Shown: one piece after another, positions 31,989-61,384 of the stretch
Position numbering within the stretch: the first letter of the stretch is position 1
Layout: the number at the start of each line of letters is the position of its first letter
DNA from: Halomonas salipaludis
GTDB lineage: Bacteria > Pseudomonadota > Gammaproteobacteria > Pseudomonadales > Halomonadaceae
Reading direction: 5' to 3'
NCBI RefSeq assembly: GCF_002286975.1
Contig: NZ_NSKB01000005.1
Span: 372,001 to 436,000 of the forward strand
DNA: 64,000 bases
Notes under the pieces: model-generated
Databases searched by the model: none
The model's input: only the letters and a program-made list of their open reading frames with translations
Told to the model about the DNA's origin: nothing
Made by a program: the position numbers and the translations under genes

Positions 31989-32104
31989 TCCTTTGCCTTG
32001 TCGCGGGATGTCGGCACCAGTATAGCGGCGGCGCGGGCCCCGCTGCAGCTTTCGTTAGGCCGGCAAACGTGCGTCAATGCCGATTGACCACGGGGAGGAT
32101 GTGC

Positions 32105-33226: not shown

Positions 33227-33284
33227 CGATCGACGCCAAAACTTCTTATTGAAGCTCACAGCTAACGTATTCTCTATTAGCAAA

Positions 33285-33399
33285 GAGGGACGCCAGCGGC
33301 AGGTCGAAGAGGAGGTGTCGATGCCATGGATGGCATCGGTAGCGCCCAGGGAAGGTTTACAGCGCCTCCTCGCAGGCCTGCCGGTGAGTCAGTCCCGAG
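33285..33399 (-). repeat. Structured intergenic repeat, copy A
   Basis: Read on the minus strand this 115-bp unit has GGCAGG near its start, then GAGGAGG, the conserved core GGCGCTGTAAACC and TCCCTGGGCGCTACC, the apical stem CGATGCCAT-cc-ATGGCATCG (33319-33338), then CCTCCTC and CCTGCC. The arms pair in nested order, making one long imperfect hairpin. It sits between the convergent ends of the cardiolipin synthase-like gene and the UPF0149 gene. Homologous copies lie at 37806-37985, 51069-51146 and 51161-51275. Confidence 0.85.
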
Positions 33400-33424
33400 T
33401 TGCGATCTATCTGGGATACAGCTT

Positions 33425-34060
33425 TTAACGCTTTCCACGTCCGCCGCGAGCCTTCTTGCGCGGGCTGGGCTTGGGCTTTTCCGGCGGCACCCGGTAGTTG
33501 AGGTAGAGATCGAGCACCAGCTCGGGCAGCTGCTGGACCAGCCCCTCGAGGCGCGTCGGGTCGACCATCTCGGCCATGTCGGGCTCGTCATCGAACAGCC
33601 CGGAAAGCGCCATGAACGGCAGCAGCAGCGCCGCGGCACCCTCTTCGTCGCCGTCGAACCAGGCCGGTTCGTCGAGGAACACCGCCTCCATGAAGCCGGC
33701 GCACCAGTCGCCGATCGGCGTCTCCTCGGGGGGCAGGCCGGCCAGGGTCAGCTCGAAGGGCAGCTCCGGCAGCAGGCCCTGCTCAAGGGCTGAGACGGCG
33801 TTGGCCTTGAGCGTCTCGAGCAGGCCGATGATCTCGTCGCGCTCGGCATCATCGCTGAATGCCGGCTCGCCGTGGAACAGCTCACCGATCCATACCGCCG
33901 GATCGAGCTCGCGCGGCGCCACCGCCAGTGCCACCAGGTAGCCGTGGCTGCTGATCAGGTCGAGGGCGTCCTCGCCGACCCGCTCCGAGGCGAGGAAGTC
34001 ATCGAGACGGTCGAGGGCGTCATCGTCGAGGAGCGGCTGGGGGGGCGGCGTATCGGACAT
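33425..34060 (-). CDS. UPF0149 (YecA/YgfB) family protein
   Basis: A 211-residue acidic, helical protein of the UPF0149 family. Recognisable segments are LDDFLASERVGEDALDLIS-SHGYLVALAVAP, IGDWCAGFMEAVF and FMALSGLFDDEP. There is no C-terminal SEC-C zinc motif; the tail is instead strongly basic (PRKKARGGRGKR). The molecular function of this family is not established. The start at 34060 is chosen because upstream codons to 34171 overlap the divergent sprT start and are not conserved-looking. Confidence 0.8.
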   Translation of the reverse strand: MSDTPPPQPLLDDDALDRLDDFLASERVGEDALDLISSHGYLVALAVAPRELDPAVWIGELFHGEPAFSDDAERDEIIGLLETLKANAVSALEQGLLPELPFELTLAGLPPEETPIGDWCAGFMEAVFLDEPAWFDGDEEGAAALLLPFMALSGLFDDEPDMAEMVDPTRLEGLVQQLPELVLDLYLNYRVPPEKPKPSPRKKARGGRGKR

Positions 34061-34110
34061 GGGACTCTCTGGCTGGACGGCGGCGAATTGGCCGGTCATT
34101 CTAGCACCCC

Positions 34111-34671
34111 ATGACCTTTTCAGCGCTCCCCGTTCCCGCTCGCGACTATCTTGAGGGCCTCGATGCCACACAGCTCGAGGCCTGCCTGCAGGCCCAGGTC
34201 GAGGCCGCCTGGCAGCGCTGTCGCGAGGTGCACCCCGAGCTGCCGCGGCCGCGGGTGTGGTGCGACCTGCGCGGCAAGAGCGCCGGCCAGGCCCACTTCG
34301 GCCGCGGTGGGCTGCGCTTCAACGCGCGCCTCTACGCCGAGAACCGCCACGCCTTCCTGGCCGAGGTGGTGCCCCACGAGATGGCCCACTGGCTGGTCCA
34401 GCACCTCGCCGATGGATCGCGGGCAAGGCCCCATGGCCGCGAGTGGCAGACGGTGATGCGCCGGCTGTTTGCCCGCGAGCCCCACGTCACCCACCGCTTC
34501 GACGTCAGCCGTGCCAGCCCCGCGCCGCACTGCTATCGCTGCGCCTGTCGCGCCCACTTCTTTACTCCGCGTCGCCATGCATTGGCGCGTCGCGGCAGCC
34601 GCTATCGTTGTCGACATTGTGCTCAGACCTTGGTCTATGCGCCGCGGGAAGTTGACGAAAAATCGTCATAA
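34111..34671 (+). CDS. SprT-like zinc metallopeptidase family protein
   Basis: A 186-residue SprT/SprT-like domain protein. The zinc-binding helix is VVPHEMAHWLV (HExxH at about residues 90-94), with a further ligand expected in RPHGREWQTVM. A C-terminal zinc ribbon follows, with CYRCAC and CRHC pairs (about residues 147-172). Eukaryotic SPRTN relatives degrade DNA-protein crosslinks; the bacterial role is not firmly known. It is divergent from the UPF0149 gene with about 50 bp between starts, and precedes acs by 158 bp. Confidence 0.87.
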   Translation: MTFSALPVPARDYLEGLDATQLEACLQAQVEAAWQRCREVHPELPRPRVWCDLRGKSAGQAHFGRGGLRFNARLYAENRHAFLAEVVPHEMAHWLVQHLADGSRARPHGREWQTVMRRLFAREPHVTHRFDVSRASPAPHCYRCACRAHFFTPRRHALARRGSRYRCRHCAQTLVYAPREVDEKSS

Positions 34672-34829
34672 GTTACTGTTGTTAAATGGATATTTGTTAA
34701 TACCAATGTCTAAAAGGCGGACGCCCTGCAGGGGTATATGCTGGGTGTGTTTTTAGGGTCGACGCGCTGCAGCATTTTTCGCCGTCGGCAATCGTCATTC
34801 CATAACCACTCATGGACAGGGGTTAATCG

Positions 34830-36779
34830 ATGACCGAACAGCAGCATGTCTATCCGGTGAGCGAGTCGTTCGCTGCCAATGCCTGGGCCGACAACGAAAA
34901 ATACCTGGCGATGTACCAGCAGTCGGTCGATGCACCCGATGCGTTCTGGGCCGAGCAGGCCAAGCGGCTCGACTGGATCAAGGCGCCGACCAAGATCAAG
35001 AACACCTCCTACGCTTCCGACAACGTCGACATCCGCTGGTACGAGGATGGCACCCTCAACGCCTCGGCCAACTGCCTCGACCGCCATCTGGCGACGCGCG
35101 GCGACCAGCCGTCGATCATCTGGGAGGGCGACGACCCCAACCTGTCCAAGACCATCACCTATCGCGAGCTCCACGCGCGGACCTGCCAGCTGGCCAATGC
35201 GCTCAAGTCGCTGGGCGTCAAGAAGGGCGATGTGGTCACCCTGTACATGCCGATGATCCCCGAAGCGGCCATGGCGATGCTGGCCTGTGCGCGGATCGGC
35301 GCGATCCACTCGGTGGTGTTCGGCGGCTTCTCGCCGGACGCCCTGGCCCAGCGCGTCATCGACTCGCAGTCCAAGCTGGTGATCACCTCCGATGAGTCGG
35401 TACGTGGCGGCAAGCAGGTGCCGCTCAAGGACAACGTCGACGCCGCCCTGACCCGCGATGGCACCGACGTCGCCGAATCGGTGCTGGTGGTCAAGCGTAC
35501 CGGGGGCGATATCGACTGGCACGAGGGGCGCGACGTGTGGTTCGACGAGCTGGTCGACCAGCAGTCCAGCGACTGCCCCGCCGAGGAGATGAACGCCGAG
35601 GATCCGCTGTTCATCCTCTACACCTCCGGTTCCACCGGCGCGCCCAAGGGGCTCAAGCACACCACCGGCGGCTACCTGACCTTCGCCAGCCTGACCCACC
35701 AGTACGTCTTCGACTACCAGGAGGGCGAGGTCTACTGGTGCAGCGCCGACGTCGGCTGGGTCACCGGCCACAGCTATATCGTCTACGGGCCGCTGGCCAA
35801 CGGCGCCACCACCCTGATGTTCGAGGGGGTACCCAGCTACCCCACCAACGGCCGCTTGGGCGAGGTGATCGACAAGCACAACGTCAGCATCCTGTATACG
35901 TCGCCCACCGCGATCCGCGCGCTGATGGCCCACGGCGACAAGGTCATGGACTCCAGCAAGCGTACCAGCCTGCGGCTGCTGGGCTCGGTGGGCGAGCCGA
36001 TCAACCCCGAGGCCTGGGAGTGGTTCCACCGCGTGATCGGCAACGGCAAGTGCCCGATCGTCGATACCTGGTGGCAGACTGAGACCGGCGGCATCATGAT
36101 CACCCCGCTGCCGGGCGCCACCGACCTCAAGCCGGGCTCGGCGACGCGGCCGTTCTTCGGCGTGCAGCCGGCGCTGGTCGACAACGAGGGCAATATCCTC
36201 GAAGGTGCCACCGAAGGTAACCTGGTGATCCTCGATGCCTGGCCGGGCCAGGCGCGGACCATCTGGAACAACCACGAGCGCTTCGTCCAGACCTACTTCT
36301 CGACCTACGAGGGCATGTACTTTACCGGCGACGGTTGCCGCCGCGACGAGGATGGCTACTACTGGATCACCGGGCGTGTCGACGACGTGCTCAACGTCTC
36401 CGGGCACCGCATGGGTACCGCCGAGATCGAGTCCTCGCTGGTCGCTCACTCGGCGGTGGCCGAGGCCGCGGTGGTGGGCTTCCCCCACGATATCAAGGGC
36501 CAGGGCATCTATATCTACGTGACCCTGACCGACGGCAGCGAACCCAGCGATGCGCTCAAGAAGGAGCTCACCCAGTGGGTGCGCAAGGACATCGGGCCGA
36601 TCGCTTCACCTGATATCATCCAGTGGGCGCCGGGCTTGCCCAAGACGCGTTCGGGCAAGATCATGCGCCGTATCCTGCGCAAGATCGCTGCCAACGAGTG
36701 TGACGGCCTGGGCGATACCAGCACCCTGGCCGATCCCACCGTGGTCGACGACCTGATCGAGAACCGCGCCAACCGCTGA
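34830..36779 (+). CDS. acs: Acetyl-CoA synthetase (AMP-forming)
   Basis: Activates acetate to acetyl-CoA through acetyl-AMP; 649 residues against 652 in E. coli. Signature motifs are [19 protein letters not shown] (about residues 262-280), [28 protein letters not shown] and the catalytic, normally acetylatable lysine about K610 in [11 protein letters not shown]. The adjacent CrbR response regulator, and crbS and a symporter beyond it, indicate control by the CrbS/CrbR acetate switch known in Vibrio and Pseudomonas. The 158-bp upstream gap is AT-rich around 34660-34715, where the promoter and CrbR site are expected; no specific site was identified. Confidence 0.96.
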
Positions 36780-36830
36780 GTGTCGACATGAACGGCGAGC
36801 GCTATGCGAATAGCGCTGTCGTCTACAGCG

Positions 36831-36858
36831 AATGCCGGCCTTAGCAAGCCGGCATTTT
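36831..36858 (+). terminator. Rho-independent terminator after acs
   Basis: 9-bp stem AATGCCGGC / GCCGGCATT with an 8-nt loop, running into TTTCA, 51 bp downstream of the acs stop. A further hairpin, CGCCCCT/AGGGGCG (36961-36983), lies in the crbR leader. Confidence 0.75.
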
Positions 36859-37038
36859 CATGTCTAGTGGCGATGCCTGATGAAACCGCGCAGGGTTGAA
36901 TGTGCGGGCTTGGGATTCTTCATCGCCATGGGGTAACATGCCGTGTAACAATGGCGAACCCGCCCCTAGGCGCCGAAGGGGCGGCTGCGCGTTGGCAATG
37001 GCCGCGCGTTCGCGATAAGAGGAACCGGAGGAGTCTCA

Positions 37039-37701
37039 ATGGCCTTTGCCCAGAAATTCATCGTCGCCGATGACCATCCGCTGTTCCGTGCGGCCCTGAC
37101 CCAAGCGCTGCGACAGCTGGCTCCCCAGGCCGAGATCGTCGAATCCGATACCATGGAGGCGACTACTGAGGTGGTCACGCGGCATCCGGATGCCGATCTG
37201 ATTCTGCTCGACCTGCACATGCCCGGGGCGCACGGCTTCTCCGGGTTGATCCAGCTGCGCGGCCAGATGCCCGATATCCCTGTGGCAGTGGTCTCGGGCA
37301 GCGACGAGCCCTATGTGGTGCGGCGCGCCATCGACTACGGCGCCTCGGGCTTCATTCCCAAGTCGTCGTCGCTATCGCTGATCGCCGAGGCGGTGGGCGA
37401 GATCCTCGACGGCGAGGTGTGGCTGCCGCCGGAACTGGCCGAGGCGCTGGGCGAGTCCAACGAGGAGGAGACCAAGTTCGCCGAAGCCATCGCCTCGTTG
37501 ACGCCGCAGCAGTTCCGCGTGCTCAACATGCTCACTGAAGGGCTGCTCAACAAGCAGATCGCCTACGAGCTCAACGTCTCGGAAGCCACCATCAAGGCCC
37601 ACGTGACGGCGATCCTGCGCAAGCTGGGCGTGCACTCACGGACCCAGGCGGTGATCGCCGCGCAAAAGCTCGAGGTCGAACCGCCCAAGGTCGAGTCCTA
37701 G
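37039..37701 (+). CDS. crbR: LuxR-type response regulator, CrbR/ErdR-like
   Basis: A 220-residue two-component regulator. The receiver domain (about residues 5-125) has the acidic pair DDHP, the phosphoacceptor D58 in LILLDLHMPG and the Lys in GFIPKSSS. The C-terminal LuxR/FixJ helix-turn-helix is at about residues 150-210 (LTPQQFRVLNMLTEGLLNKQ, ELNVSEATIKAHVTAILRKL). It lies just downstream of acs and faces the sensor kinase with the symporter domain. That context matches CrbS/CrbR, which activates acs and acetate uptake in Vibrio and Pseudomonas. The symbol rests on context plus domain structure. Confidence 0.85.
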   Translation: MAFAQKFIVADDHPLFRAALTQALRQLAPQAEIVESDTMEATTEVVTRHPDADLILLDLHMPGAHGFSGLIQLRGQMPDIPVAVVSGSDEPYVVRRAIDYGASGFIPKSSSLSLIAEAVGEILDGEVWLPPELAEALGESNEEETKFAEAIASLTPQQFRVLNMLTEGLLNKQIAYELNVSEATIKAHVTAILRKLGVHSRTQAVIAAQKLEVEPPKVES

Positions 37702-37739
37702 CGTCCAACTGCTCGGGTGCGCAAGCCGAGATAGCTGAC

Positions 37740-37775
37740 AAAACCCCATCGGATGTCGTGTCCGGTGGGGTTTTT
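37740..37775 (+). terminator. Rho-independent terminator after crbR
   Basis: 13-bp stem AAACCCCATCGGA / TCCGGTGGGGTTT with one wobble pair and a 7-nt loop, followed by TTTTT. Confidence 0.9.
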
Positions 37776-37805
37776 CGTGGTCAGTCTGTTTTCGCGGCTT
37801 TCTCG

Positions 37806-37985
37806 GCGACAGGCCTGCGCGGGGGCGCTGTAAACCATCCCTGGGCGCTACCTGCGCCCTGCTGTGCTCACGCATCCTGCTTCGCTTGCAGGACCGGAGC
37901 TGGCCATCCTTGGCCAGCTCGTTCGGAGCAGTACTCCGAACCCATGGCGCAGAACCCCCGCTTCGCTCTGTCCCCGAGGCCGCTG
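37806..37985 (+). repeat. Structured intergenic repeat, copy B with inserted stem-loops
   Basis: Shares the core GGCGCTGTAAACC and TCCCTGGGCGCTACC with copies A and C. The apical stem is CTGCGCC (37852-37858) with GGCGCAG (37946-37952), but the short loop is replaced by an 87-bp insert holding three hairpins: CCTGC/GCAGG (37876-37892), GAGCTGGCCA/TGGCCAGCTC (37897-37920) and GTTCGGAG/CTCCGAAC (37921-37941). Outer arms GCGGGGG/CCCCCGC and GACAG/CTGTC also pair. It fills most of the 307-bp gap between the convergent crbR and crbS genes. Confidence 0.82.
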
Positions 37986-38008
37986 TGTCGTGGACACTTA
38001 CCTTCTTA

Positions 38009-41953
<3,945 letters not shown>

Positions 41954-42026
41954 GCATCCTCCCCTTGGTCTGCGAGCATTCTAGAGCAATGGCACGGCGG
42001 GTCGCAGTGGTGGCCGCCGTTGGCGC

Positions 42027-42542
42027 TCAGCCGGCGTCGCACACCGCCCGATAGAGCGGATCGTCGTCGGCCAGGTTGCGCAGCGCTGCGAGCTGCGGTC
42101 GGCGCGGCTCGCCGGCCAGCGGTACCAGCTCTTGAGTGGTGCAGTTCATCAGGTAGGCCTGGTGGCTGACCAGGTCCATGTGGTGGCGCTCGAAACGGTA
42201 GCGGATGAACTCCACCAGGCGCTCACCGTCGCTATCGGTGACCGACATGTTGGCCTGGTCGACCACCTCGAAGGCGTTGGCGATGGGGAAGGCGTAGGTC
42301 CAGGGCCGCCAGAACGCGCCGCCGTGTTCCACCGCCACCACCTCGGTAGAGTCGGGGAGCTGCTGCTGCTTGTGGCTCAACCAGGTGTATTCGTGATGAA
42401 TCTGATAGCCCAGCACGCCGAGGCCGGCACAGGCCGGGATGATCCAGCGCGGCAAGCGCTTGCCGCTGAGAAAGCGCAGCAGCAGCCCGAGGCCGGCAGC
42501 GCCGAGGCCGGCAAAGGCGGCTGCAATCAAGTGCCATATCAT
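42027..42542 (-). CDS. Small membrane-anchored protein of unknown function
   Basis: A 171-residue protein I do not recognise. Two hydrophobic segments at the N-terminus (MIWHLIAAAFAGLGAAGLG, then PACAGLGVLGY) suggest membrane anchoring. The remaining about 125 residues look soluble (EVVAVEHGGAFWRPWTYAF, FIRYRFERHHMDLVSHQAY). The start at 42542 has an AAAGG site; further upstream codons run through a hairpin and are unlikely to be translated. It lies between the large symporter subunit and crbS on the same strand, so a link to acetate sensing or transport is possible but only by position. Confidence 0.7.
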   Translation of the reverse strand: MIWHLIAAAFAGLGAAGLGLLLRFLSGKRLPRWIIPACAGLGVLGYQIHHEYTWLSHKQQQLPDSTEVVAVEHGGAFWRPWTYAFPIANAFEVVDQANMSVTDSDGERLVEFIRYRFERHHMDLVSHQAYLMNCTTQELVPLAGEPRRPQLAALRNLADDDPLYRAVCDAG

Positions 42543-42562
42543 AAGGTACCTTTCTGAAAGCA

Positions 42563-42627
42563 GTCGGGCTTCCCTGGGGGAAGCCCGACGTGTTGCGGTG
42601 AACGAGCCCCGGCGCCTGGCGCCGGGG
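42563..42627 (-). terminator. Tandem strong hairpins between the symporter gene and the small membrane protein gene
   Basis: On the minus strand the transcript leaving the symporter meets GCCCCCGGCGCC/GGCGCCGGGG (42607-42627), then a perfect 12-bp stem GTCGGGCTTCCC/GGGAAGCCCGAC with a 3-nt loop (42563-42589). No long U tract follows. They may terminate most transcripts or act as attenuators or RNA-stabilising stems between actP-like and crbS expression. Confidence 0.6.
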
Positions 42628-42638
42628 GCCATTATGGC

Positions 42639-44435
42639 TTAGTGGTCGATGGCACCACCAGCACCTTTGGGATAGCGCACGCTTTCCACCAGGTCCTGGA
42701 TCTCCTGGGGAGGCTCCTCGGTGGCGTTGGATACCGCGAAGGCCACGGCGAAGTTGATCATCGCGCCGACGGCACCGAACGACAGCGGCGAGATGCCCAG
42801 AATCCAGTTGTCCGGGGTATTCGGCAGCATGTTGGTGCCGGGGATGAACAGCCAGCCCAGGTAGGTGAAGATGTACAGCAGGGTGGCGACCAGGCCGGCA
42901 AGCATGCCGGACACGGCGCCCTTGCTGTTCACTCGCTTGGAGAAGATCCCCATCATCAGTGCCGGGAACAGTGACGCACCGGCGATCCCGAAGGCCAGGG
43001 CGACCGTCTGCGCGGCGAAGCCCGGCGGGTTGAGACCCAGGTAGGTCGCCAGCAGGATGGCACCGGCCATGGAGATCCGCGCCGCCAGCATCTCGCCCTT
43101 CTCGGTGATATTGGGGTTGATGGTGTTCTTGATCAGGTCGTGACTGATCGCCGAGGAGATGGCCAGCAGCAGGCCGGCTGCAGTGGACAGGGCAGCGGCG
43201 ATACCGCCGGCGGCGATCAGGCCGATGACCCAGCCCGGCAGGTTGGCGATCTCCGGATTGGCGAGTACCAGGATGTCATTGTTGACCTCCAGTTCGTTGC
43301 CTTCCCAGCCACGCTCGGCGGCGGTGTCGGCAAAGTCCGGGTTGGCGTCGTTGTAGACCTGGATGCGGCCATCGCTGTTGAGATCGTTGAACTCGATGAG
43401 ACCGGTCTCTTCCCAGGTCCTGATCCACTCTGGGCGCTCCTCGTAGACCAGTGCGTTGTCCATCGCCTCTTCGTAGTTCTCGACCTGGCCGGCAGCGTCC
43501 GGATAGACGGTGGTCAGCAGGTTGAGACGCGCCATCGAGGCCACCGCCGGTGCGGTCAGGTAGAGCAGGGCAATGAACACCAGCGCCCAGCCGGCTGACC
43601 AGCGTGCATCGGCGACCTTGGGTACGGTGAAGAAGCGGATGATAACGTGGGGCAGGCCCGCGGTGCCGACCATCAGCGACAGGGTGAACAGCACCATGTT
43701 GAGCTTGTTGTCGACGTCGGCGGTGTAGTCGCGGAAGCCGAGCTCATTGAGCACCGAGTTGAGCTTTTCGAGCAGCGGCAGGCCCGATTCGGTGTGGGTG
43801 CTGAACATGCCGAACATCGGGATCGGGTTGCCGGTCAGCTGCAGCGCAATGAATACCGCGGGAATGGTGTAGGCGATGATCAGCACGATGTACTGAGCCA
43901 CCTGGGTGTAGGTGATGCCCTTCATGCCGCCGAAGACCGCATACAGGAACACGATGAAGGCGGCGATCCAGATGCCCCAGGTGTTGCTGACTTCGAGGAA
44001 GCGCGAGAAGGCCACGCCGGCGCCGGTCATCTGGCCGATGACGTAGGTCACCGAGGCAACGACCAGGCACACCACCGCGACGATGCGTGCCGGCGTGCTA
44101 TAGAAACGATCACCGATGAAGTCGGGCACCGTGAACTTGCCGAACTTGCGCAGGTAGGGGGCCAGCAGCATGGCCAGAATCACGTAGCCGCCGGTCCAGC
44201 CCATCAGGAAGCTGGAGTTGGCGTATCCCCCGGAGGCCAGCAGGCCGGCCATGGAGATGAACGAGGCCGCCGACATCCAGTCGGCGGCGGTAGCCATGCC
44301 GTTGGTGATGGGATGCACGCCGCCGCCGGCGACGTAGAAATCCTTGGTCGAGCCGGCACGGGCCCAGATCGCGATGCCGACGTAGAGGGCAAACGAGGCC
44401 CCCACGAACAGCAGGTTGATGGCAAACTGACTCAT
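42639..44435 (-). CDS. Sodium:solute symporter large subunit, probable acetate/monocarboxylate transporter
   Basis: A 598-residue SSSF-family permease with about 13 membrane segments. Typical blocks are FYVAGGGVHPITNGMATAAD, WMSAASFISMAGL, GVAFSRFLEVS, GTAGLPHVIIRFFTVP and GIAAALSTAAGLLLAISSA. It carries a large hydrophilic insertion (about residues 310-390, acidic, NSDGRIQVYNDANPDF). Pairing with a DUF4212 small subunit 6 bp upstream places it in the two-component VC_2705-type group, distinct from ActP with YjcH (DUF485). Neighbouring acs, crbR and crbS point to acetate or related monocarboxylate uptake; the substrate is inferred. Confidence 0.87.
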   Translation of the reverse strand: MSQFAINLLFVGASFALYVGIAIWARAGSTKDFYVAGGGVHPITNGMATAADWMSAASFISMAGLLASGGYANSSFLMGWTGGYVILAMLLAPYLRKFGKFTVPDFIGDRFYSTPARIVAVVCLVVASVTYVIGQMTGAGVAFSRFLEVSNTWGIWIAAFIVFLYAVFGGMKGITYTQVAQYIVLIIAYTIPAVFIALQLTGNPIPMFGMFSTHTESGLPLLEKLNSVLNELGFRDYTADVDNKLNMVLFTLSLMVGTAGLPHVIIRFFTVPKVADARWSAGWALVFIALLYLTAPAVASMARLNLLTTVYPDAAGQVENYEEAMDNALVYEERPEWIRTWEETGLIEFNDLNSDGRIQVYNDANPDFADTAAERGWEGNELEVNNDILVLANPEIANLPGWVIGLIAAGGIAAALSTAAGLLLAISSAISHDLIKNTINPNITEKGEMLAARISMAGAILLATYLGLNPPGFAAQTVALAFGIAGASLFPALMMGIFSKRVNSKGAVSGMLAGLVATLLYIFTYLGWLFIPGTNMLPNTPDNWILGISPLSFGAVGAMINFAVAFAVSNATEEPPQEIQDLVESVRYPKGAGGAIDH

Positions 44436-44441
44436 GTCCGG

Positions 44442-44702
44442 TTACTCCCCCAGGCCAAACTGTGCATCGAGCTTATTCATGCGCCAGGCATAGAAGAAGA
44501 TGATGCCGATGAAGGTCAGGATGGAGCCCTGCTGAGCGAACCAGAAGCCCAGGTCGGTCCCGCCGATAGGAATGCCGGACAGCAGCGGTCGCAGTAGAAT
44601 GGCGAAGCCGTATGACACCAGTGCCCAGACGATCAGGCAGCCGGTTATCAAGCGCACGTTGGCCTTCCAGTATGCAGCGGCATTGGATTTATCATCTGCC
44701 AT
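44442..44702 (-). CDS. DUF4212 small membrane subunit of the sodium:solute symporter
   Basis: An 86-residue protein with two membrane segments (LITGCLIVWALVSYGFAILL and SILTFIGIIFFYAWRM) and the family start AAAYWKANVRL. DUF4212 proteins are encoded directly before symporters of the VC_2705 group and are regarded as a small partner subunit. The ATG at 44702 has a GAGAG site; the frame is open further upstream to 44777 but without conserved features. The large subunit begins 6 bp after its stop. Confidence 0.88.
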   Translation of the reverse strand: MADDKSNAAAYWKANVRLITGCLIVWALVSYGFAILLRPLLSGIPIGGTDLGFWFAQQGSILTFIGIIFFYAWRMNKLDAQFGLGE

Positions 44703-45199
44703 TGTGATGCTCTCCACGTGTGTTGGAAGTGTTGGTGTGGTGATGAGAGTTGGTGTGACCCAGCAAGGCAATCGCACCTATCGAACGTTGGCCGTGTCGT
44801 TATCCAAAAGCATATGACTAACGTCGACCCTGTCATCTACGTGAGATTGCCCTGCATGATTCATGACTGATAGTGGTCAATAGATGCCTAAAAATAAATC
44901 CCAGACTTTGGTATCACGCCTTTTGTTGAAGTTTATTCGTAGATCCTTTCTTCAGTTAAATCATTGTCTTACATGGTGTGTCGAAAATAACTTGGGCGAC
45001 CTGGTGAGGCACTATAGGACGATGGTATAGCGTCGCTAGGCAGAACTTTATACCAAAGGCGACGCCTCATTGAACGATAGTCTAGCTGTCGGCTGGGTGG
45101 CTGGCTTTGTTATTCTGTAGATATGAAGAAAGATAAGTAAGGCAGGGTTAACCGAAAGTATACGAGCGGAAAGTCTTACGCGTTATCGAGGTTGCTACC
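44703..45199. other. 497-bp divergent intergenic region with nested inverted repeats
   Basis: This gap separates the symporter operon (minus) from the cNMP/CBS/nucleotidyltransferase gene (plus) and is noticeably AT-rich between about 44840 and 45000. At 45006-45068 it holds interleaved inverted repeats: GAGGC/GCCTC, GGTATA (45024-45029)/TATACC (45049-45054) and GCGTCGC (45030-45036)/GCGACGC (45059-45065). The last two cannot form at once without a pseudoknot. No open frame longer than about 60 codons looks coding. Promoters for both flanking units and any CrbR site are expected here. Confidence 0.5.
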
Positions 45200-47011
45200 A
45201 TGGTCGATGTCGATCTTTCCCAGCCGCCGTTCACGCTGCTCGATGACGCAGGACGTGAGCGGGTACGTGGCGGCGTCGACCTGGCCTATTTCGACACCCA
45301 GGAAGTCATCCTCGATGCCGGCCAGCCCGGGGAATTCGTGTTCATGATCCACAAGGGCGAGGTGGCCGAGCTCGACCCGACCATGCCGGCAGCGGCGGCG
45401 CGAATCGGTCACTACACCGCCGGTGACCTGTTCGGTGCCATCAGCATCCTCAATGGCAAGAGTCGCTACCGCTTCCAGGCCGAGCAGGAGAGCCTCTGCT
45501 ATTTGCTGCCCAAGGCGCTGTTTCAGCGGCTGTGCGATGACTACCCGGCGTTTGCCGAGTTTTTCCGCCAGAGCCTGACCCACAAGGCGCGTTTGCTCAC
45601 CGAGCGGCGCGCCGAGGGTGGGGTGACCATGGCCGGTTTCATGCTGGCGCGCATCGGCGAGTGCATGCGCGAGCCGTTGGTGGTCGATCAGGCGACCAGC
45701 ATCTTCGATGCGGTGAGCACCCTCAATGCCAGTCACGCCGACAGCCTGCTGGTGTGCGACGGCGAGCGCTTCGGCATGGTCACCAAGACCGACCTGCTCA
45801 ATGCCGTGGTCATCGAGGGCCTGGACCAGCAGCGCCCGGCCATCGAGGTGGCGCATTTCGAACTGGTCACCGCCGGCGCCGAGCAGTATCTGTTCGAGGC
45901 GCTGGTGCGCATGACCCGTCACGAGGTGGCACGAGTGGTGGTGGTCGAGGAGGGCAAGCCGGTGGGCGTGGTCGAGCTCACCGACGTGCTGAGCTTCTTC
46001 TCCAGCCGCAGCTACGTGGTCAGCCTGCAGGTCGAGCAGGCCGATAGCCTCGACGAGCTGGCCCGTGCCAGCGCGCGTACGCCGGAGCTGGTGCGTGCGT
46101 TGATGGCCCAGGGGGTCAAGCTGCGCTTCGCCATGGGCCTGCTGGCGGCTCTCAATGGCCGCATCATGGCCAAGGCGTGGGGCTTCGCCATCGACGAGGT
46201 GCATCGCGACGCCAGCTGTCTGATCGTGATGGGCAGCGAGGGGCGCGGCGAGCAGATTCTCAAGACCGACCAGGACAATGCGTTGATCCTGGCCGACGGC
46301 CACGCCTGGCCGGAGTGCGAGGCGCAGATGCGCGAGGTCACCGAGACCCTGATTCGCCTCGGCTACCCGCCGTGCCCGGGCAATATCATGGTCTCCAACC
46401 CCGACTGGGTGGGTAGTGTCAGCGAGTGGCGCGAGCGCATTGCGCGCTGGGCCGCACGCCGCGACGGCGATAGCCTGATGAAGCTCGCCATCATGCTCGA
46501 CGCCCACGCCGTGGCGGGCCAGACCGCACTGCTCGAGCAGGTGCGCGACGAGTTGTTCGAGCGCTGCCGTCGCGACGAGATACTGCTCTCCTATTTCGCG
46601 CGCACCGCGCTGCGCTTCTCCACGCCGTTGACGCTGTTCGGCTCGCTGAAGAAGCCCCAGCACGGCATCGATATCAAGAAGGGCGGCATCTTTCCCATCG
46701 TGCACGGTGTTCGCACCCTGGCGCTGGAGCGCGGCATTCGCGCCACCTCGACCCTCGACCGGCTCGACGCCCTGGCCGAGGACGGCCGCCTCGAGGCCAA
46801 TTTCGCCGAGGATCTGGGCGAGGCGCTGGCGCTGTTCACCGAGCTGCGCCTGCGTCAGCAGCTCGAGCGTGACGGCGACGGCGAGGATGCCAACCGGGTG
46901 GTGGTGCAGCAGCTCTCGTCGCTGGAGCGCGACCTGTTGCGCGAGGCGCTGCACATGGTCAAGGACTTCAAACAGCGGCTGTCACAGCGCTTTCATCTGG
47001 AATACAGCTGA
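45200..47011 (+). CDS. cNMP-binding/CBS/DUF294 nucleotidyltransferase-like protein
   Basis: A 603-residue multidomain protein. Residues about 20-130 are a cyclic-nucleotide-binding fold (VILDAGQPGEFVFMIHKGEV, GDLFGAISILNG). Two CBS motifs follow (about 155-270, FGMVTKTDLLNAVV, PVGVVELTDVL). Then comes a GlnD-like nucleotidyltransferase domain (about 300-440) with GSEGRGEQILKTDQDNA, whose Asp pair would bind metal, and a C-terminal DUF294 substrate-binding domain. Such proteins are often found beside DUF4212/SSSF symporters and a DnaQ-like exonuclease, as here. A regulatory role in acetate metabolism is possible, but target and ligand are unknown. Confidence 0.88.
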   Translation: MVDVDLSQPPFTLLDDAGRERVRGGVDLAYFDTQEVILDAGQPGEFVFMIHKGEVAELDPTMPAAAARIGHYTAGDLFGAISILNGKSRYRFQAEQESLCYLLPKALFQRLCDDYPAFAEFFRQSLTHKARLLTERRAEGGVTMAGFMLARIGECMREPLVVDQATSIFDAVSTLNASHADSLLVCDGERFGMVTKTDLLNAVVIEGLDQQRPAIEVAHFELVTAGAEQYLFEALVRMTRHEVARVVVVEEGKPVGVVELTDVLSFFSSRSYVVSLQVEQADSLDELARASARTPELVRALMAQGVKLRFAMGLLAALNGRIMAKAWGFAIDEVHRDASCLIVMGSEGRGEQILKTDQDNALILADGHAWPECEAQMREVTETLIRLGYPPCPGNIMVSNPDWVGSVSEWRERIARWAARRDGDSLMKLAIMLDAHAVAGQTALLEQVRDELFERCRRDEILLSYFARTALRFSTPLTLFGSLKKPQHGIDIKKGGIFPIVHGVRTLALERGIRATSTLDRLDALAEDGRLEANFAEDLGEALALFTELRLRQQLERDGDGEDANRVVVQQLSSLERDLLREALHMVKDFKQRLSQRFHLEYS

Positions 47012-47061
47012 GGCTCCGCTTCGGCCTGGACAACGACGATAACCGAGCCATGGAGGTTCAC

Positions 47062-47679
47062 ATGCTGCGCGCTCTGCGCCGAGCCAGCGACCGACGTCGT
47101 CATGCCGAAGGCGAGTATGGCTGGCTGTTTCACCCTTATACCGGCAACGAGATGGTGGCCATCGACTGCGAGACCACCGGCCTCGATACCCGCTGTGCCG
47201 AGCTGGTATCGATCGCCGCGGTCAAGGTGCGCGACGGCCGGGTGCTGACCAGCGAGTCTCTCGACCTGCGCCTGCAGCGTCCGGCCAGCCTCAACGGCGA
47301 CTCGATCCGTATCCACGGCCTGCGCGGCATCGATCTGGCCGGTGGCGACTGTGTCGAGGAGGCGCTGGACAAGCTGCTCGACTTCATCGGCAACCGGCCA
47401 CTGATGGGCTGGTGCCTGGACTTCGACATAACGATACTCAACCGCCACCTGCGCCCGCGCTTCGGCTTCGACCTGCCCAATTCGCTGATCGAAGTCTCGC
47501 AGCGCTACGTGCGCGACCTGCGGCGCGCGCATCCCGAGATCGAGCCGAACCTGCGCTTCGAGGCGGTGGCCAAGGCCCTCGACGTGCCGGTGATCGGCCG
47601 CCATACCGCGCTGGGCGACGCAGTCACCGCGGCACTCATGTACCTGCGCCTGGAGAAGGGCGCGATGCGCGGCGACTGA
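47062..47679 (+). CDS. DnaQ-like 3'-5' exonuclease
   Basis: A 205-residue DEDDh exonuclease. Exo I is VAIDCETTGLDT (about residues 34-45), Exo II is MGWCLDFDITILN and Exo III is IGRHTALGDAVTAA, giving the D-E-D-H-D set. It lacks polymerase III epsilon's C-terminal extension, so it is probably not the replicative proofreading subunit. The ATG at 47062 is 5 nt after GGAGG; the ATG at 47050 would sit before that site. It follows the nucleotidyltransferase-like gene by 50 bp on the same strand and is probably its operon partner. The stop codon lies in a 20-bp tandem repeat. Confidence 0.87.
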   Translation: MLRALRRASDRRRHAEGEYGWLFHPYTGNEMVAIDCETTGLDTRCAELVSIAAVKVRDGRVLTSESLDLRLQRPASLNGDSIRIHGLRGIDLAGGDCVEEALDKLLDFIGNRPLMGWCLDFDITILNRHLRPRFGFDLPNSLIEVSQRYVRDLRRAHPEIEPNLRFEAVAKALDVPVIGRHTALGDAVTAALMYLRLEKGAMRGD

Positions 47680-47715
47680 CGTCGTTGCGCGGCGACTGAC
47701 GTCGTTGCGCGGCGA
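47667..47715 (+). repeat. 20-bp tandem repeat spanning the exonuclease stop codon
   Basis: The unit GCGCGGCGACTGACGTCGTT occurs twice in direct contact (47667-47686 and 47687-47706), followed by a partial third GCGCGGCGA (47707-47715). The first unit contains the TGA stop. Confidence 0.9.
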
Positions 47716-47756
47716 TGGTAAGATGGCCGGCCATTTCCGGCCCCGATGCTGCGATC

Positions 47757-48635
47757 ATGTCCGAGATACTTCCTCCCCAGGCGGCGGGCGTCAGTGACGC
47801 CCGCGACAAGCGTGAGTTCAACAAGCTGCAGAAGCGCCTGCGTCGGCAGGTGGGCAACGCGATCATCGACTACGGCATGATCCGCGACGGCGACAAGGTC
47901 ATGGTCTGCCTGTCCGGGGGCAAGGACTCCTACACCATGCTCGAGATCCTGCGCAGCCTGCAGCGCAGCGCGCCGGTGGACTTCTCGCTGGTGGCCGTCA
48001 ACCTCGACCAGAAGCAGCCCGGCTTTCCCGAACACGTATTGCCCGAGTATCTCGACGCTGCTGGCGTCGACTACCATATCCTCGAGCGCGACACCTACTC
48101 GGTGGTCAAGGAGAAGACCCCCGAGGGCAAGACCACCTGCGCGCTCTGCTCGCGGCTGCGGCGCGGCTCGCTGTACGGTTTCGCCGAGGAGATCGGTGCC
48201 ACCAAGGTGGCGCTGGGCCACCATCGCGAGGATATTCTCGAGACGCTGTTTCTCAACATGTTCTTCGGCGGCAGCCTCAAAGCGATGCCGCCAAAGTTGC
48301 TCGCCGACGATGGCAAGAACATCGTGATCCGGCCGCTGGCCTACTGCCGCGAGGCGGACATCGCCGAGTTCGCCCGGCGCATGGCGTTCCCGATCATTCC
48401 CTGCAATCTGTGCGGTTCGCAGCCCAACCTGCAGCGCCAGGTGGTCAAGGAGATGCTCGCCGAGTGGGAGGCCAAGTACCCCGGGCGGCTCGAGACCATG
48501 TTCAAGGCGGTCACCAACGTGGCCCCCTCGCAGCTCGCCGACCGCGAGCTGTTCGACTTCGTCGGGCTCGAGGACAAGCAGGCGCGGATGCAGGCCAATC
48601 GTATCGAAGCCTTCGATCTGGCCCGCCAGGCCTAG
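47757..48635 (+). CDS. ttcA: tRNA 2-thiocytidine biosynthesis protein TtcA
   Basis: An ATP-dependent, Fe-S-containing enzyme thiolating cytidine 32 in tRNA. The PP-loop is [13 protein letters not shown] (about residues 44-56). The two CxxC cluster motifs are [10 protein letters not shown] and [32 protein letters not shown] is also characteristic. Length 292 residues. The ATG at 47757 has no strong Shine-Dalgarno; a GTG at 47715 is in frame but lies inside the tandem repeat. It converges on fnr, with a shared terminator between them. As an Fe-S tRNA modifier beside fnr it is a common neighbour in this group. Confidence 0.94.
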
Positions 48636-48660
48636 TCGCCGACGCTGCGATGCAGATGCA

Positions 48661-48694
48661 CAGCGCCCCCGCCGATCGCTCGGTGGGGGCGCTG
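48661..48694. terminator. Bidirectional terminator between ttcA and fnr
   Basis: 15-bp stem CAGCGCCCCCGCCGA / TCGGTGGGGGCGCTG with one wobble and a TCGC tetraloop, followed by TAGTTT on the plus strand. It sits between convergent gene ends. Confidence 0.8.
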
Positions 48695-48714
48695 TAGTTT
48701 CGCAGTCGGGATGG

Positions 48715-49458
48715 CTAGTGGCAGCCGTCGCCCTCGGCGAGAGACTCGAGTGCTGCCAGGTCGAGGATATTGACCTCGCGGCCGGCCACCGCCACCAGCT
48801 GCTGCTGCTGGAAGCGGCCGAGGATGCGGCTGACGGTTTCCACTGCCAGGCCCAGGTAGTTGCCGATATCGGCGCGCGACATCGACAGCCGGAAACTGTA
48901 GGCGGAGTAGCCGCGGCGGCGGAAGCGATTCGACAGCCCGAGCAGGAAGCTGGCCAGGCGCTCGTCGGCGGTCTTGCGTGACAGCAGGCGCATCATGCGG
49001 CGGTCGTCGCGCATCTCCTTGCTCATGCTGCGAAACAGCTGTGTGCGCAGCTCCGGTAACTGTTCGGAGAGATGGTCCAGGCGGTCGAAGGGGATCTCGC
49101 ATACCGTGGTGGTCTCGAGGGCAGTGACCGTTCCGGGGTAGCGTTCGTCGTCGATGGCGTCGAGGCCGACCAGCTCGCTGGGCAGATAGAAGTTGGTCAG
49201 TTGGTCCTCGCCGTTGCCCTCGCTGGCCAGCTGCTTGAGGCTGCCCGAGCGCACCGCAAACACGCTGGTAAACGCCTCGCCCTGGCGGAACAGCGCCTCG
49301 CCCTTCTTGAGCGGCGCGCGACGGCGAATGATGGCGTCGAACTGGTCGACGTCGGAGAACTCCAGGGCCAGTGGTAGGCACAGTGAACTCAGGCTGCAGG
49401 TCTGGCAGCGCGTCTCGTGCAGTCGTGCGCTTCTAGGGGCGGTGACGGGGGCTGGCAT
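48715..49458 (-). CDS. FNR/Anr-type oxygen-sensing transcriptional regulator
   Basis: A 247-residue CRP/FNR-family regulator. The N-terminal cysteines CQTCSLSSLC (plus the Cys in TTVCEIPFDRL) supply the four ligands of the oxygen-labile 4Fe-4S cluster. The cNMP-like sensor domain is in the middle and the HTH is at the C-terminus (MSRADIGNYLGLAVETVSRIL; the ExxSR residues recognise TTGAT half-sites). An AGGAGGAGG site precedes the ATG at 49458; the frame remains open far upstream without meaning. It lies downstream of hemN in the cco-hemN-fnr series, as anr does in Pseudomonas. Likely targets here are ccoN and hemN. Confidence 0.93.
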   Translation of the reverse strand: MPAPVTAPRSARLHETRCQTCSLSSLCLPLALEFSDVDQFDAIIRRRAPLKKGEALFRQGEAFTSVFAVRSGSLKQLASEGNGEDQLTNFYLPSELVGLDAIDDERYPGTVTALETTTVCEIPFDRLDHLSEQLPELRTQLFRSMSKEMRDDRRMMRLLSRKTADERLASFLLGLSNRFRRRGYSAYSFRLSMSRADIGNYLGLAVETVSRILGRFQQQQLVAVAGREVNILDLAALESLAEGDGCH

Positions 49459-49535
49459 GACCTCCTCCTGGGTGGTGGCGTTGCCCTCAGTATGGTAGAT
49501 CGTGGCGCTACGGCAAAGGATGCTTTCCGGCATGA

Positions 49536-50951
49536 TCAGAGGATCCTCGAGTAGCGCGGCCCCTGGCCGGGCGTGAGATGGGCGTCGAAGGCCATCGCCA
49601 GGTGGCGAATCAGCAACTTGCCGATCGGGGTGGCGGTCAAGGTCAGGCCGCGGCGGATCATCAGGCCGTCGCGTTCGGCCCCCTCCAGCTGGCGTAGGCT
49701 GTCGGCAAAGTAGTGCTCGGCGTCGATGCCGAAGCGGCTGCCGAGCTCGGCCAAGTCGAGGTGCATGTCGCACATCAGGCGCTCGATGGCGTAGCGGCGA
49801 TATAGGTCGTCCTGGCTCAGGCGCACGCCGCGCTGGGTCGCCAGGCGTCCGGCGTCGAGCGCTGCCTCGTAGCCGGCCAGGTCGCTGGGATTCTGGGCAT
49901 AGAGATCGTCGACCCGCGAGATCGCCGAGACCCCGAGGCCCACCAGGTCACTGTCGGCGTGGCTCGAGTAGCCCTGGAAGTTGCGCTGCAGGGTGCCCTG
50001 GCGCTGGGCCACGGCGAGGCTGTCATCGGGACGCGCGAAGTGGTCCATGCCGATATGCACATAGCCGGCGGCCTCGAGCATGTCAATGGTAGTGCGCAGG
50101 ATGGCCAGCTTCTCCTCGGCACTGGGCAGGTCGGCCTCGCTGATACGTCGCTGCGGCGCGAAGCGCTGCGGCATGTGCGCGTAGTTGAACACCGAGAGCC
50201 GTGCCGGGGCCATGTCGATGACCTGCTCGAGCGTCGCGGCGAAGCTGTCGCGGGTCTGGTGGGGCAGGCCGTAGATCAGGTCCATGTTCAGCGAGCGAAA
50301 GCCCAGCCGGCGTGCCTCGTCGACCAGGGTTTCGGTAAGCACGCGGGGCTGCACGCGGTTGATGGCCTTCTGGACCCGCAGGTCGAGGTCCTGGACGCCG
50401 AGGCTGATGCGGTTGAAGCCCAGCGCCTGCAGGTGACGCAGGGTCAGCATATTGGCTTCGCGGGGGTCGATCTCGATGGCGTAGTCGCGCTGCGGGTCGC
50501 TGCTGAGGCCGAAGCGGCTGTGCAGCCGGTCGACCAGGTCGCCCATCTGGTCGAGGGTCAGGAAGGTTGGGGTGCCGCCGCCCCAGTGCAGCTGGCTGAC
50601 CGGCCGTGAGGTGTCCAGATGCCGCGCGGCGAGCACCATCTCGCGGTCGAGCCTGGCCAGGTAGGGCTCGGCCAGGCGGGTGTTCTTGGTGGCGATCTTG
50701 TTGCAGGCGCAGTAGAAGCAGATCTTGCGGCAGAACGGTACGTGCACGTAGAGCGACAGCGGCCGGCCGCCGGCATTGCTGCGCGACAGCGCTTCACTAA
50801 ACGCCTCGGCGCCGACGCCGTCGTGAAACGACAGCGCGGTAGGGTATGAGGTGTAGCGCGGCCCGCTGACGTCGTAGCGGCGAATCAGCGCCTCGTCCCA
50901 GGCGGAGGACGCCGCCGCCTGGGGCGGCGCGATGGGCGTGGCGTAAGACAT
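49536..50951 (-). CDS. hemN: Oxygen-independent coproporphyrinogen III dehydrogenase HemN
   Basis: A radical-SAM enzyme making protoporphyrinogen IX without oxygen for haem synthesis. The cluster motif is VHVPFCRKICFYCACNKI (CxxxCxxC plus the adjacent Cys, about residues 65-80). Other HemN-specific blocks are SGPRYTSYPTA, QLHWGGGTPTFL, FNRISLGVQD, MDLIYGLPHQT and RNFQGYSSH. Length 471 residues from the ATG at 50951, which has an AGGAGTG site; the longer frame to 50984 is rejected. A partial FNR-type box lies about 60-75 bp upstream, fitting low-oxygen control. Confidence 0.96.
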   Translation of the reverse strand: MSYATPIAPPQAAASSAWDEALIRRYDVSGPRYTSYPTALSFHDGVGAEAFSEALSRSNAGGRPLSLYVHVPFCRKICFYCACNKIATKNTRLAEPYLARLDREMVLAARHLDTSRPVSQLHWGGGTPTFLTLDQMGDLVDRLHSRFGLSSDPQRDYAIEIDPREANMLTLRHLQALGFNRISLGVQDLDLRVQKAINRVQPRVLTETLVDEARRLGFRSLNMDLIYGLPHQTRDSFAATLEQVIDMAPARLSVFNYAHMPQRFAPQRRISEADLPSAEEKLAILRTTIDMLEAAGYVHIGMDHFARPDDSLAVAQRQGTLQRNFQGYSSHADSDLVGLGVSAISRVDDLYAQNPSDLAGYEAALDAGRLATQRGVRLSQDDLYRRYAIERLMCDMHLDLAELGSRFGIDAEHYFADSLRQLEGAERDGLMIRRGLTLTATPIGKLLIRHLAMAFDAHLTPGQGPRYSRIL

Positions 50952-51010
50952 GGTGGGCACTCCTGACGAGGATCTTGCGCCCATGCTAGCGCCGGCGCGG
51001 CGCGGCGATC

Positions 51011-51024
51011 TTGCCTTGGGTCAA
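51011..51024 (-). promoter_or_regulatory. Possible FNR/Anr box upstream of hemN
   Basis: TTGCC-ttgg-GTCAA resembles the TTGAT-N4-ATCAA consensus with 7 of 10 matching bases, and its centre is 67 bp before the hemN start. The match is incomplete, so this is a candidate only. Confidence 0.4.
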
Positions 51025-51068
51025 GTCACCGTGCATTCGTGCCCAGGCCATCGCAGGTAGCGGCGCCG

Positions 51069-51146
51069 CTCGGGGCTGAACCGTCTCAAGACCTACGAAG
51101 AGGCGTCGTCAAACCGTCCTTGGACGCTGCCTACGCGATCCACGGA
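51069..51146 (+). repeat. Structured intergenic repeat, degraded copy D
   Basis: A diverged left half of the repeat seen in full 15 bp downstream: CTCGGGGCTGAACCGTC, then ACCTACGAAGAGGCG, CAAACCGTCCTTGGACGCT and GCGATCCACGG correspond position by position to copy C. The right-hand arms are missing, so the long hairpin cannot form. Confidence 0.65.
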
Positions 51147-51160
51147 GTGCAGCAGCACCG

Positions 51161-51275
51161 CTCGGGACTGATCCGTCGGCAGGCCTACGAGGGGGCGCTG
51201 TAAACCCGTCCCTGGGCGCTACCTTGCGCCATCCATGGCGCAAACCCCCTCTTCGGCCTGCCCCCGGCGTCCCTC
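51161..51275 (+). repeat. Structured intergenic repeat, copy C
   Basis: The clearest full unit. Outer arms GGCAGGCC (51178-51185)/GGCCTGCC (51255-51262), middle arms GAGGGGG (51189-51195)/CCCCCTC (51245-51251) and apical stem TTGCGCCAT-cc-ATGGCGCAA (51224-51243) are all perfect. The conserved core GGCGCTGTAAACC and TCCCTGGGCGCTACC lies between. With copy D it fills most of the 327-bp gap between hemN and the TauE-like gene and ends 3 bp before the latter's stop. Confidence 0.85.
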
Positions 51276-51278
51276 GCT

Positions 51279-60992: not shown

Positions 60993-61068
60993 GGGTGGTT
61001 AGCTCAGTTGGGAGAGCACCAGCCTTACAAGCTGGGGGTCACTGGTTCGAACCCAGTACCACCCACCA
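60993..61068 (+). tRNA. tRNA-Val (anticodon TAC)
   Basis: 76 nt. Acceptor GGGTGGT/ACCACCC, anticodon stem CCAGC/GCTGG with loop CTTACAA giving anticodon TAC, T arm with GGTTCGAACCC, CCA encoded. Confidence 0.97.
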
Positions 61069-61121
61069 TCGCCCAGCGATGGGGCCTGAGACAGCAGGCT
61101 TGGATACGTAGGAAACACAGC

Positions 61122-61198
61122 GGACCGGTAGTTCAGTTGGTTAGAATGCCGGCCTGTCACGCCGGAGGTCGCGGGTTCGAGTCCCGTCCGGTCCGCCA
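61122..61198 (+). tRNA. tRNA-Asp (anticodon GTC), copy 1
   Basis: 77 nt. Acceptor GGACCGG/CCGGTCC, anticodon stem CCGGC/GCCGG with loop CTGTCAC giving anticodon GTC, CCA encoded. Confidence 0.97.
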
Positions 61199-61275
61199 GT
61201 TTTCCAATCGGCAGTTCGCTGCCAGCAGCACCAGGCAAGATGCGCGCTCTGGCCGACAGGCCTTATCGCCACTGC

Positions 61276-61352: not shown

Positions 61353-61384
61353 TGTCTGTGCCTGTCTTATTTTGTCGTACGCGT

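Follow-up and report, generated by a model that had tools for sequence, protein, structure and literature searches.

The repeat units and their surroundings

The 64,000-nucleotide stretch of Halomonas salipaludis DNA analysed here (the window; C29:372001-436000 of the host genome G000, which comprises 5.48 Mb in 33 contigs) carries three copies, A, B and C, of an intergenic palindromic repeat, together with a degraded copy D, and it is argued below that this repeat is probably a mobile element akin to the YPAL repeat of Yersinia, whose RNA would bind CsrA/RsmA through two hairpin loops near gene 3' ends. Coordinates in the window are given as window positions, and the genes are predictions from a codon model trained on the window rather than a curated annotation. 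An earlier reading of the letters alone (the sequence-only reading) had located three full copies and a degraded fourth one; their core, GGCGCTGTAAACC, is indeed exact at 33354-33366 (minus strand), 37824-37836 (plus) and 51194-51206 (plus) and nowhere else in the window, and the arm sequences quoted at that time are present as well. With up to two mismatches, the core has six window matches against 1.26 expected, and a second stretch, CCTGGGCGCTACC, has three exact matches in the same three copies.

Copy A, flanked according to Pfam by genes for a PLD-like and a UPF0149 protein, starts 51 nt past the stop of the predicted gene 32099-33226 (+). Copy B lies past the stop codon of predicted gene 38009-41953 (-), its neighbours encoding a LuxR-type response regulator and a PAS/histidine kinase protein. 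Copy C, between genes for a DsbD_2 protein and a HemN-like radical SAM protein, overlaps the end of predicted gene 51279-51980 (-) by 4 nt and is therefore sense to that gene. The limits first given for the units proved too narrow, the structured unit being longer when delimited with the covariance model R1, built from alignment A1 of 22 compact host copies (Table 1). Besides, copy B holds the core without being the simple full copy it was taken for, as an insert interrupts its apical hairpin. This long type accounts for 9 of the first 30 loci of the host genome, and the insert that such copies carry in hairpin 1 contributes a further hairpin, whose loop fits CANGGANG. Copy D was missed by the R1 search at an E-value of 0.01, and is also present in the congener G002.

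Table 1. Copies of the repeat in the window and their parts
Feature	Position	Strand	Basis
Copy A, compact unit: outer stem and two hairpins	33278..33402	+ (folding strand)	R1 match, 111 bits
Copy A hairpin 1, CGATGCC-ATGGAT-GGCATCG, loop 33326-33331	33319..33338	+	sequence and fold
Copy A hairpin 2, GTAGCGCC-C-AGGGAA-GGTTTAC, loop 33348-33353	33339..33360	+	sequence
Copy B, long type	37788..37992	-	R1 match, 85 bits
Copy B hairpin 2, loop AGGGAT at 37837-37842	37830..37851	-	sequence
Copy B insert, about 84 nt, in place of the hairpin 1 loop	37859..37942	-	comparison with compact copies; ends set by eye
Hairpin within the copy B insert, GAGCTGGCC-AAGGAT-GGCCAGCTC, loop 37906-37911	37897..37920	-	sequence and fold
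Degraded copy D, oriented as C	51069..51146	-	sequence, by eye
Copy C, compact unit	51158..51282	-	R1 match, 142 bits
Copy C hairpin 2, GTAGCGCCC-AGGGAC-GGGTTTAC, loop 51208-51213	51200..51222	-	sequence and fold
Copy C hairpin 1, TTGCGCC-ATGGAT-GGCGCAA, loop 51231-51236	51224..51243	-	sequence and fold

Fold, covariation and strand

Searching the host genome and other Halomonadaceae with a covariance model, as the sequence-only reading had proposed, yielded 107 R1 matches in the former at an E-value of 0.01 (150 candidates scored) and further ones in other genera of the family. The core alone has 71 matches in the host genome at up to three mismatches, versus 6 for a reversed control. In the three window copies, the strand opposite to the one first quoted folds more stably, with energies (kcal/mol, opposite versus quoted strand) of -72.3 versus -55.5 for A, -121.4 versus -113.6 for B and -83.8 versus -64.9 for C. 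On this opposite strand, hereafter the folded strand, a long interrupted stem leads through a junction to two hairpins.

The compensatory change reported for several helices of the window copies holds genome-wide: among 109 R1-aligned matches (108 distinct), pairing is kept in 96.1% of the cells and both sides have changed at 33 of 39 pairs. Double-changed cells number 503, against 126.6 (standard deviation 14.1) after shuffling and at most 67 when the partners are slid, in an alignment that was fitted to the tested structure and is thereby biased towards it. An additional outer helix, GAGGGAC/GTCCC and variants, covaries too. In 62 diverse rows of the wider family, 15 of 19 pairs are double-changed, with 299 such cells versus 106.4 (standard deviation 7.4) in shuffled rows, while the pair types show no excess over shuffling (44 versus 43.3) and the double-change pairs a slight one (15 versus 12.6).

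The sequence-only reading had left the folded form as either RNA or cruciform DNA; the structural constraint stands, and its nature can be narrowed. On the folded strand, non-Watson-Crick pairs comprise 110 G·U versus 71 A·C (p=0.005, constitutive G·U pairs omitted), and 40 of the A·C come from columns 152-175, which probably form no true pair and without which the counts are 110 versus 31. In 127 copies taken from other genera and two scans, the outer stems contain 156 G·U versus 82 A·C (p=1.9e-6), or, by subset, 30:15, 15:22 (Microbulbifer), 23:11, 93:37 and 4:4. Such a preference for G·U on one strand is unlike what a cruciform would leave; it suggests that selection acts mainly on RNA of the folded strand. 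The constrained form thus seems to be RNA, and of the other strand than that first quoted, strand-biased mutation being a possible confounder.

The two GGA loops

Both hairpin loops read C-A-N-G-G-A-N-G while their stems vary. In alignment A3, hairpin 1 fits CANGGANG in 100 of the 102 compact rows (six long rows excluded), as CATGGATG in 64 rows, CAGGGATG in 21, CAGGGAAG in 8, CAGGGACG in 4, and CATGGAAG, CAAGGATG and CAAGGAAG in one each, the exceptions being CGTGGATG and CATGGGATG (one row each), and its stems vary freely (e.g. TGCGCC, CTACACC, CTTTTTCC, CATTCTTC). Hairpin 2 reads A.GGA in 107 of 108 rows, each N taking all four bases. As hairpin 2 belonged to the pattern that picked the first copies, its constancy is partly built in, R1 being then free to find others.

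An independent test was made on 107 copies picked by hairpin 2 only (L090-L119 and L185-L264, at most ten of them from the host genome and its family member G014). An upstream hairpin was found in 98, its loop carrying GGA in 93 of these, compared to 416 of 2274 (18%) in the shuffled control; the nine remaining copies lack an upstream hairpin of at least four pairs. Moreover, the spacing between the two loop adenines is nearly fixed, at 22-23 nt in 100 of 101 A3 rows and 22-24 nt in all 56 rows read of alignment A4, which has 62.

These loops present the A-N-G-G-A of CsrA/RsmA-binding RNA hairpins. The CsrA sequence of the host looks canonical, with R44 in place. RsmA was reported to bind a hairpin with an AAGGAU loop, binding being virtually abolished in the R44A mutant (PMC4066749), and CANGGANG corresponds to a CsrA/Rsm motif from the literature (PMC6849547). 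The first description of the hairpins was right as to their covarying stems and had missed the two GGA loops as well as the kinship with YPAL.

Kinship with YPAL and other known elements

YPAL of Yersinia was reportedly described by De Gregorio et al. in 2006. It is presented as an intergenic element of about 168 bp that has moved recently, is associated with target duplications of 3-26 bp and may affect the stability of upstream transcripts (Delihas 2007, PMC2229807). The core recurs in the printed RU-2/YPAL sequence, where the two loops read AAGGAT and ATGGAT (PMC2759123): GCGCC-AAGGAT-GGCGC is followed by GAGCC-TAC-ATGGAT-GTA-TTTACGGCGTC within an outer stem, and RU-2 shares with L186 and the A4 rows two hairpins followed by TTYACRGCG inside that stem. 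The two repeats are further alike in being intergenic and multicopy with empty and filled sites, the Halomonas copies falling between genes near gene ends and varying in presence among relatives (see below). They differ in outer stem and the TTYACAGCG stretch and, it seems, in length: against about 168 bp for YPAL, the model unit has 125 nt, some copies pairing further out and the long type reaching 205 nt. Judged by sequence, the Halomonas repeat and YPAL/RU-2 are one family, which is not new at its root. The sequence-only reading had named an already described repeat as a finding that would speak against it; with YPAL as a described relative, this partly applies, while the structural constraint is still real.

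In the portions available, YPAL/RU-2 is reported for Yersinia and Erwinia only and CsrA goes unmentioned (PMC2759123, PMC2229807). Within the open-licence literature of PubMed Central, beyond which most subscription journals lie, no paper names both YPAL and CsrA; six core 12-13-mers occur in 33 papers, of which the 30 listed seem, from their titles and opening abstract lines, to concern other subjects, and 'miniature inverted' combined with CsrA returned just a database update and an mRNA-decay study.

An Rfam search, likewise suggested by the sequence-only reading, gave only tRNAs at gathering score in the window. The weak Ysr224 (RF02770) scores of window-type copies, 22.1 and 21.5 bits on the non-folding strand (L027, L002), lie well below the gathering score of 70 and seemed due to chance until the opposite strand of a Y. 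proxima copy (L186:375-481) reached 94 bits, that of a Sodalis copy scoring 61.7. Ysr224 is thus the opposite strand of a YPAL-like copy, its model describing the strand other than the folded one. A survey counts it among the most prevalent bacterial small RNAs (sRNAs) (PMC9029176).

Other systems resemble the repeat more loosely. By description only, ERIC/IRU elements share its size class and intergenic habit (PMC2229807). As for known CsrA-related elements, the CsrR1/CsrR2 RNAs of Alcanivorax were set aside as single sRNAs according to their description, and the TAACTGA repeats of Beggiatoaceae as their source paper itself deems canonical CsrA recognition unlikely. The sponge RNAs CsrB, RsmY and RsmZ, which are single genes, also carry GGA motifs in hairpin loops, whereas the Halomonas repeat is dispersed, bears two candidate sites per unit and is not known to have a promoter. 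For rsmY and rsmZ, the single-gene state also appears in a P. putida study (PMC7937890).

Distribution across Gammaproteobacteria

Over named genomes, the exact core pattern occurs in at least 118 stretches, and the 80 loci listed are nearly all from Gammaproteobacteria, including Stenotrophomonas, Xanthomonas, Yersinia, Erwinia, Sodalis, Zobellella, Rheinheimera, Pseudidiomarina, Marinobacter, Microbulbifer, Alcanivorax and Halopseudomonas; outside this class, the list holds one Desulfobulbaceae and one Gemmatimonadetes metagenome-assembled genome. Most copies at these loci consist of a long palindrome that shares the cap but is otherwise unrelated in sequence, and a strict ANGGAN or AGGAN hairpin 1 is found in 69 of 88 copies. 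A scan of the class with the exact pattern (9 of 369 genomes) was too strict and was superseded by a core model, R2. Limited to 12 scored candidates per genome and strict filters, this model detects the family in at least 73 of 369 genomes and at least 65 of 272 genera. Counts range from 13 to 149 per genome in 15 genomes picked for having a match (150 candidates scored).

A csrA match is present in all 38 relatives examined and in 313 of the 369 class genomes. It accompanies the repeat in 68 of 73 carriers (p=0.03), and among complete genomes in 59 of 60 carriers versus 221 of 254 non-carriers (p=0.009), figures that ignore kinship and genome size and come from an overlap of two tables read by eye.

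Copy number, mobility and placement

Among the 38 relatives, 19 genomes, the host included, have R1 matches: at least 57, 73, 74 and 77 in four congeners (92 candidates scored), 0-35 in other genera of the family, and 1, 10 and 29 in three genomes of other families of the order. The neighbourhoods of the copies are syntenic in the four congeners G001-G004 (blocks 86-96% identical) while the copies come and go. At site A, G001, G002 and G004 have no copy and the unit of G003 has lost the core; at site B, the copy exists in the host only; at site C, it is intact in G003 and absent in G001, while G004 shows, by eye, no more than a short remnant. In G002, an insertion sequence (IS) interrupts the hairpin 2 loop of site C (L131:4573-6020), with GTC on both sides. 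Near-identical copies also occur at different loci. As to target site duplications, the intergenic flanks of the congeners are too divergent for reading them.

Some side observations concern these gaps. By eye, the IS in G002 has two consecutive open reading frames resembling OrfA/OrfB of the IS3 family. Where the host has the repeat at sites A and B, the corresponding gaps of G001 and G004 (L128, L134, L135) hold 7-bp tandem arrays of CTCTTCC, GCCCGAC and GGCGCTC, such that repeats of different kinds seem to gather at these places. A phage or plasmid vehicle was also considered and rejected, as no phage record and a single plasmid-collection record matched, the latter (1.83 Mb, Halomonas sp. 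PA16-9) having nine places.

Placement was determined for 106 of the 107 host matches, one having no locus in the list used. None of the 106 lies inside a predicted gene, and a few overlap gene ends. In 62 cases both neighbouring genes are read in the sense of the folded strand, and in 19 both are antisense to it (p=1.8e-6), the sense/sense class lying a median of 43 nt past the upstream stop, and 13 copies sit in divergent gaps. The earlier statement that all copies sit at gene 3' ends, two of them between convergent genes, agrees with A and B, which are convergent, and with copies lying mostly near 3' ends; copy C is not in a convergent gap, and such gaps account for only 12 of 106 copies genome-wide.

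Proposed function and alternatives

Taken together, these data make it probable, judging from sequence patterns, that the repeat is a mobile YPAL-like element whose RNA is bound by CsrA/RsmA at its two loops near gene 3' ends. The repeat forms part of a dispersed family found across Gammaproteobacteria, gained and lost in the manner of miniature inverted-repeat transposable elements (MITEs), with YPAL as its described branch. Its functional form would be the opposite-strand RNA, in which a long stem of free sequence carries a junction cap with two hairpins, their loops 22-24 nt apart and each presenting an A-N-G-G-A-N hexaloop nearly always closed by C...G. Upon read-through of a neighbouring gene, the element would join its 3' untranslated region or an intergenic RNA; a single CsrA dimer might then occupy both loops, and the bound stem could alter transcript decay or titrate CsrA. 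With about 100 elements, the host genome would offer about 200 candidate CsrA sites.

Several observations weigh against this proposal. In 101 copies from Stenotrophomonas, Microbulbifer, Marinobacter, Halopseudomonas and Zobellella, of which 99 were classed and 2 fall inside predicted genes, 29 are sense and 37 antisense to both neighbours (p=0.39), or 9 versus 18 among singletons (p=0.12), and the idea of a family-wide sense-strand bias was dropped. The G·U excess is lacking in Microbulbifer (15:22) and in the class-scan set (4:4). Some hairpin 1 loops depart from A.GGA (e.g. CTGGAT, CCGGAC, ATGAAT). Five carriers have no csrA match; G045, G106, G137 and G379 are less than 90% complete, but G233 is 98% complete. 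Finally, Ysr224 is a reported Yersinia transcript of the opposite strand.

The main rival, unlikely in our view, is a selfish MITE-like element read by a trans-acting transposase as hairpins of single-stranded DNA, its GGA loops being kept as a mobility signal and gene 3' ends being merely the least harmful places. The presence/absence pattern at sites A, B and C, the near-identical copies at separate loci, the patchy distribution and the restriction of the sense bias to the host would all fit, as would the many inverted pairs elsewhere (about 160-370 nt from start to start; L326-L365, from Stenotrophomonas maltophilia D457 and Microbulbifer harenosus) and the mobility with 3-26 bp duplications ascribed to YPAL (PMC2229807). 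Such an element does not, however, account for the G·U excess on one strand, nor for loops that match a known RNA-binding motif even at its free positions. Besides, no moving enzyme was found in the host genome by a search restricted to Y1_Tnp. The sole Y1_Tnp gene, which resembles a REP-associated tyrosine transposase (RAYT; REP, repetitive extragenic palindrome), lies at L031 (G000:C1:741091-744417) amid many GTAGGAGCGGCTTYAGCCGCGA-like REPs that form a second, unrelated repeat family.

Less probable still is a stem-only hairpin at mRNA 3' ends, stabilising the transcript, blocking exonucleases or terminating transcription, with loops devoid of a protein partner. Long GC-rich stems and the siting shortly past stop codons would suit such a role, as would the influence on transcript stability suggested for YPAL (PMC2229807), but the conservation of the loops in two hairpins is left unexplained. 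An intrinsic terminator is ruled out in particular, the hairpin not being followed by a U-tract: of the 70 best-scoring copies, 5 have TTTT no further than 25 nt from the end when the folded strand is considered, and 2 when the other strand is. Finally, a GTAG-type REP spread by a RAYT transposase is very improbable: although GTAG precedes hairpin 2 on the folded strand in most A1 rows, distant members mostly lack it there, the unit has about 125 nt or more versus 20-40 bp for REPs (PMC3733652), and the only PF01797 gene of the host (35 bits, L031) is flanked by the GTAGGAGCGGCTTYAGCCGCGA-like repeats and no unit copy, so that a short palindrome with terminal GTAG flanking a RAYT gene is not what is seen.

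To return to CsrA binding, few dispersed palindromic repeats of bacteria have been matched with a partner molecule. If CsrA reads this family, repeats present in at least 73 of 369 sampled genomes of the class would gain a concrete biochemical function, mobile elements would turn out to supply a global regulator with binding sites, and Ysr224, filed in Rfam as an sRNA, could be understood as a single strand of such a repeat. More tentatively, and with the odds somewhat against it, Gammaproteobacteria could hold a mobile network of two-site CsrA-binding RNA elements, YPAL included, with up to about 150 per genome, whose transposition rewires a global post-transcriptional regulon. Each insertion would then either bring the neighbouring transcript under CsrA or enlarge the pool of CsrA-titrating sites.

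A lead from Pseudomonas

In Pseudomonas putida, RsmA, RsmE and RsmI bind intergenic RNAs that either flank ISPpu8 or correspond to places where it is presumed to insert, a 'long palindromic region' being among them. ISPpu8 itself is said to insert in long palindromic regions, and the authors leave the matter open (PMC7937890). These regions resemble the repeat in being intergenic, IS-related and, in one case, a long palindrome, much as an IS sits in the hairpin 2 loop at site C of G002. They differ in that this paper ties them to ISPpu8 and not to a repeat family, the comparison being one of descriptions only.

R2 matches occur in 37 of 148 genomes of the family of Halopseudomonas yangmingensis (G405), several genomes of 6-7 Mb having weak ones only (E-values of 1e-5 to 5e-3). 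Of 18 loci from this family, 14 show a long palindrome ending in two hairpins with ATGGAT and AGGGAT loops, three are ordinary members (from two smaller genomes) and one, L409, is of neither type. A pattern requiring A.GGA loops found 17 units in 15 given loci, with loops ATGGAT (17), AGGGAT (16) and AGGGAC (1). As a side observation, L406-L423, except L409 and L414, come from the genomes of 6-7 Mb and represent a palindrome type of their own: the two-hairpin cap is retained, and in most cases a smaller hairpin comes next, one arm of which resembles GTTTTTCGC. This Pseudomonas-type palindrome matched no phage or plasmid-collection record; judging by description, P. fluorescens R178 (PMC2718517) and the Ppu/Pae stem-loop families (PMC2267715) might conceivably be of this type. 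That the Halopseudomonas-family palindromes are the same thing as the Rsm-bound regions of P. putida is a lead rather than a result; if CsrA does read the family, it would offer a reason for the Rsm binding of those ISPpu8-related palindromes.

Apart from the repeats, the window contains a cluster of five tRNA genes at 60993-61539 and two further tRNA genes at 839-1025.

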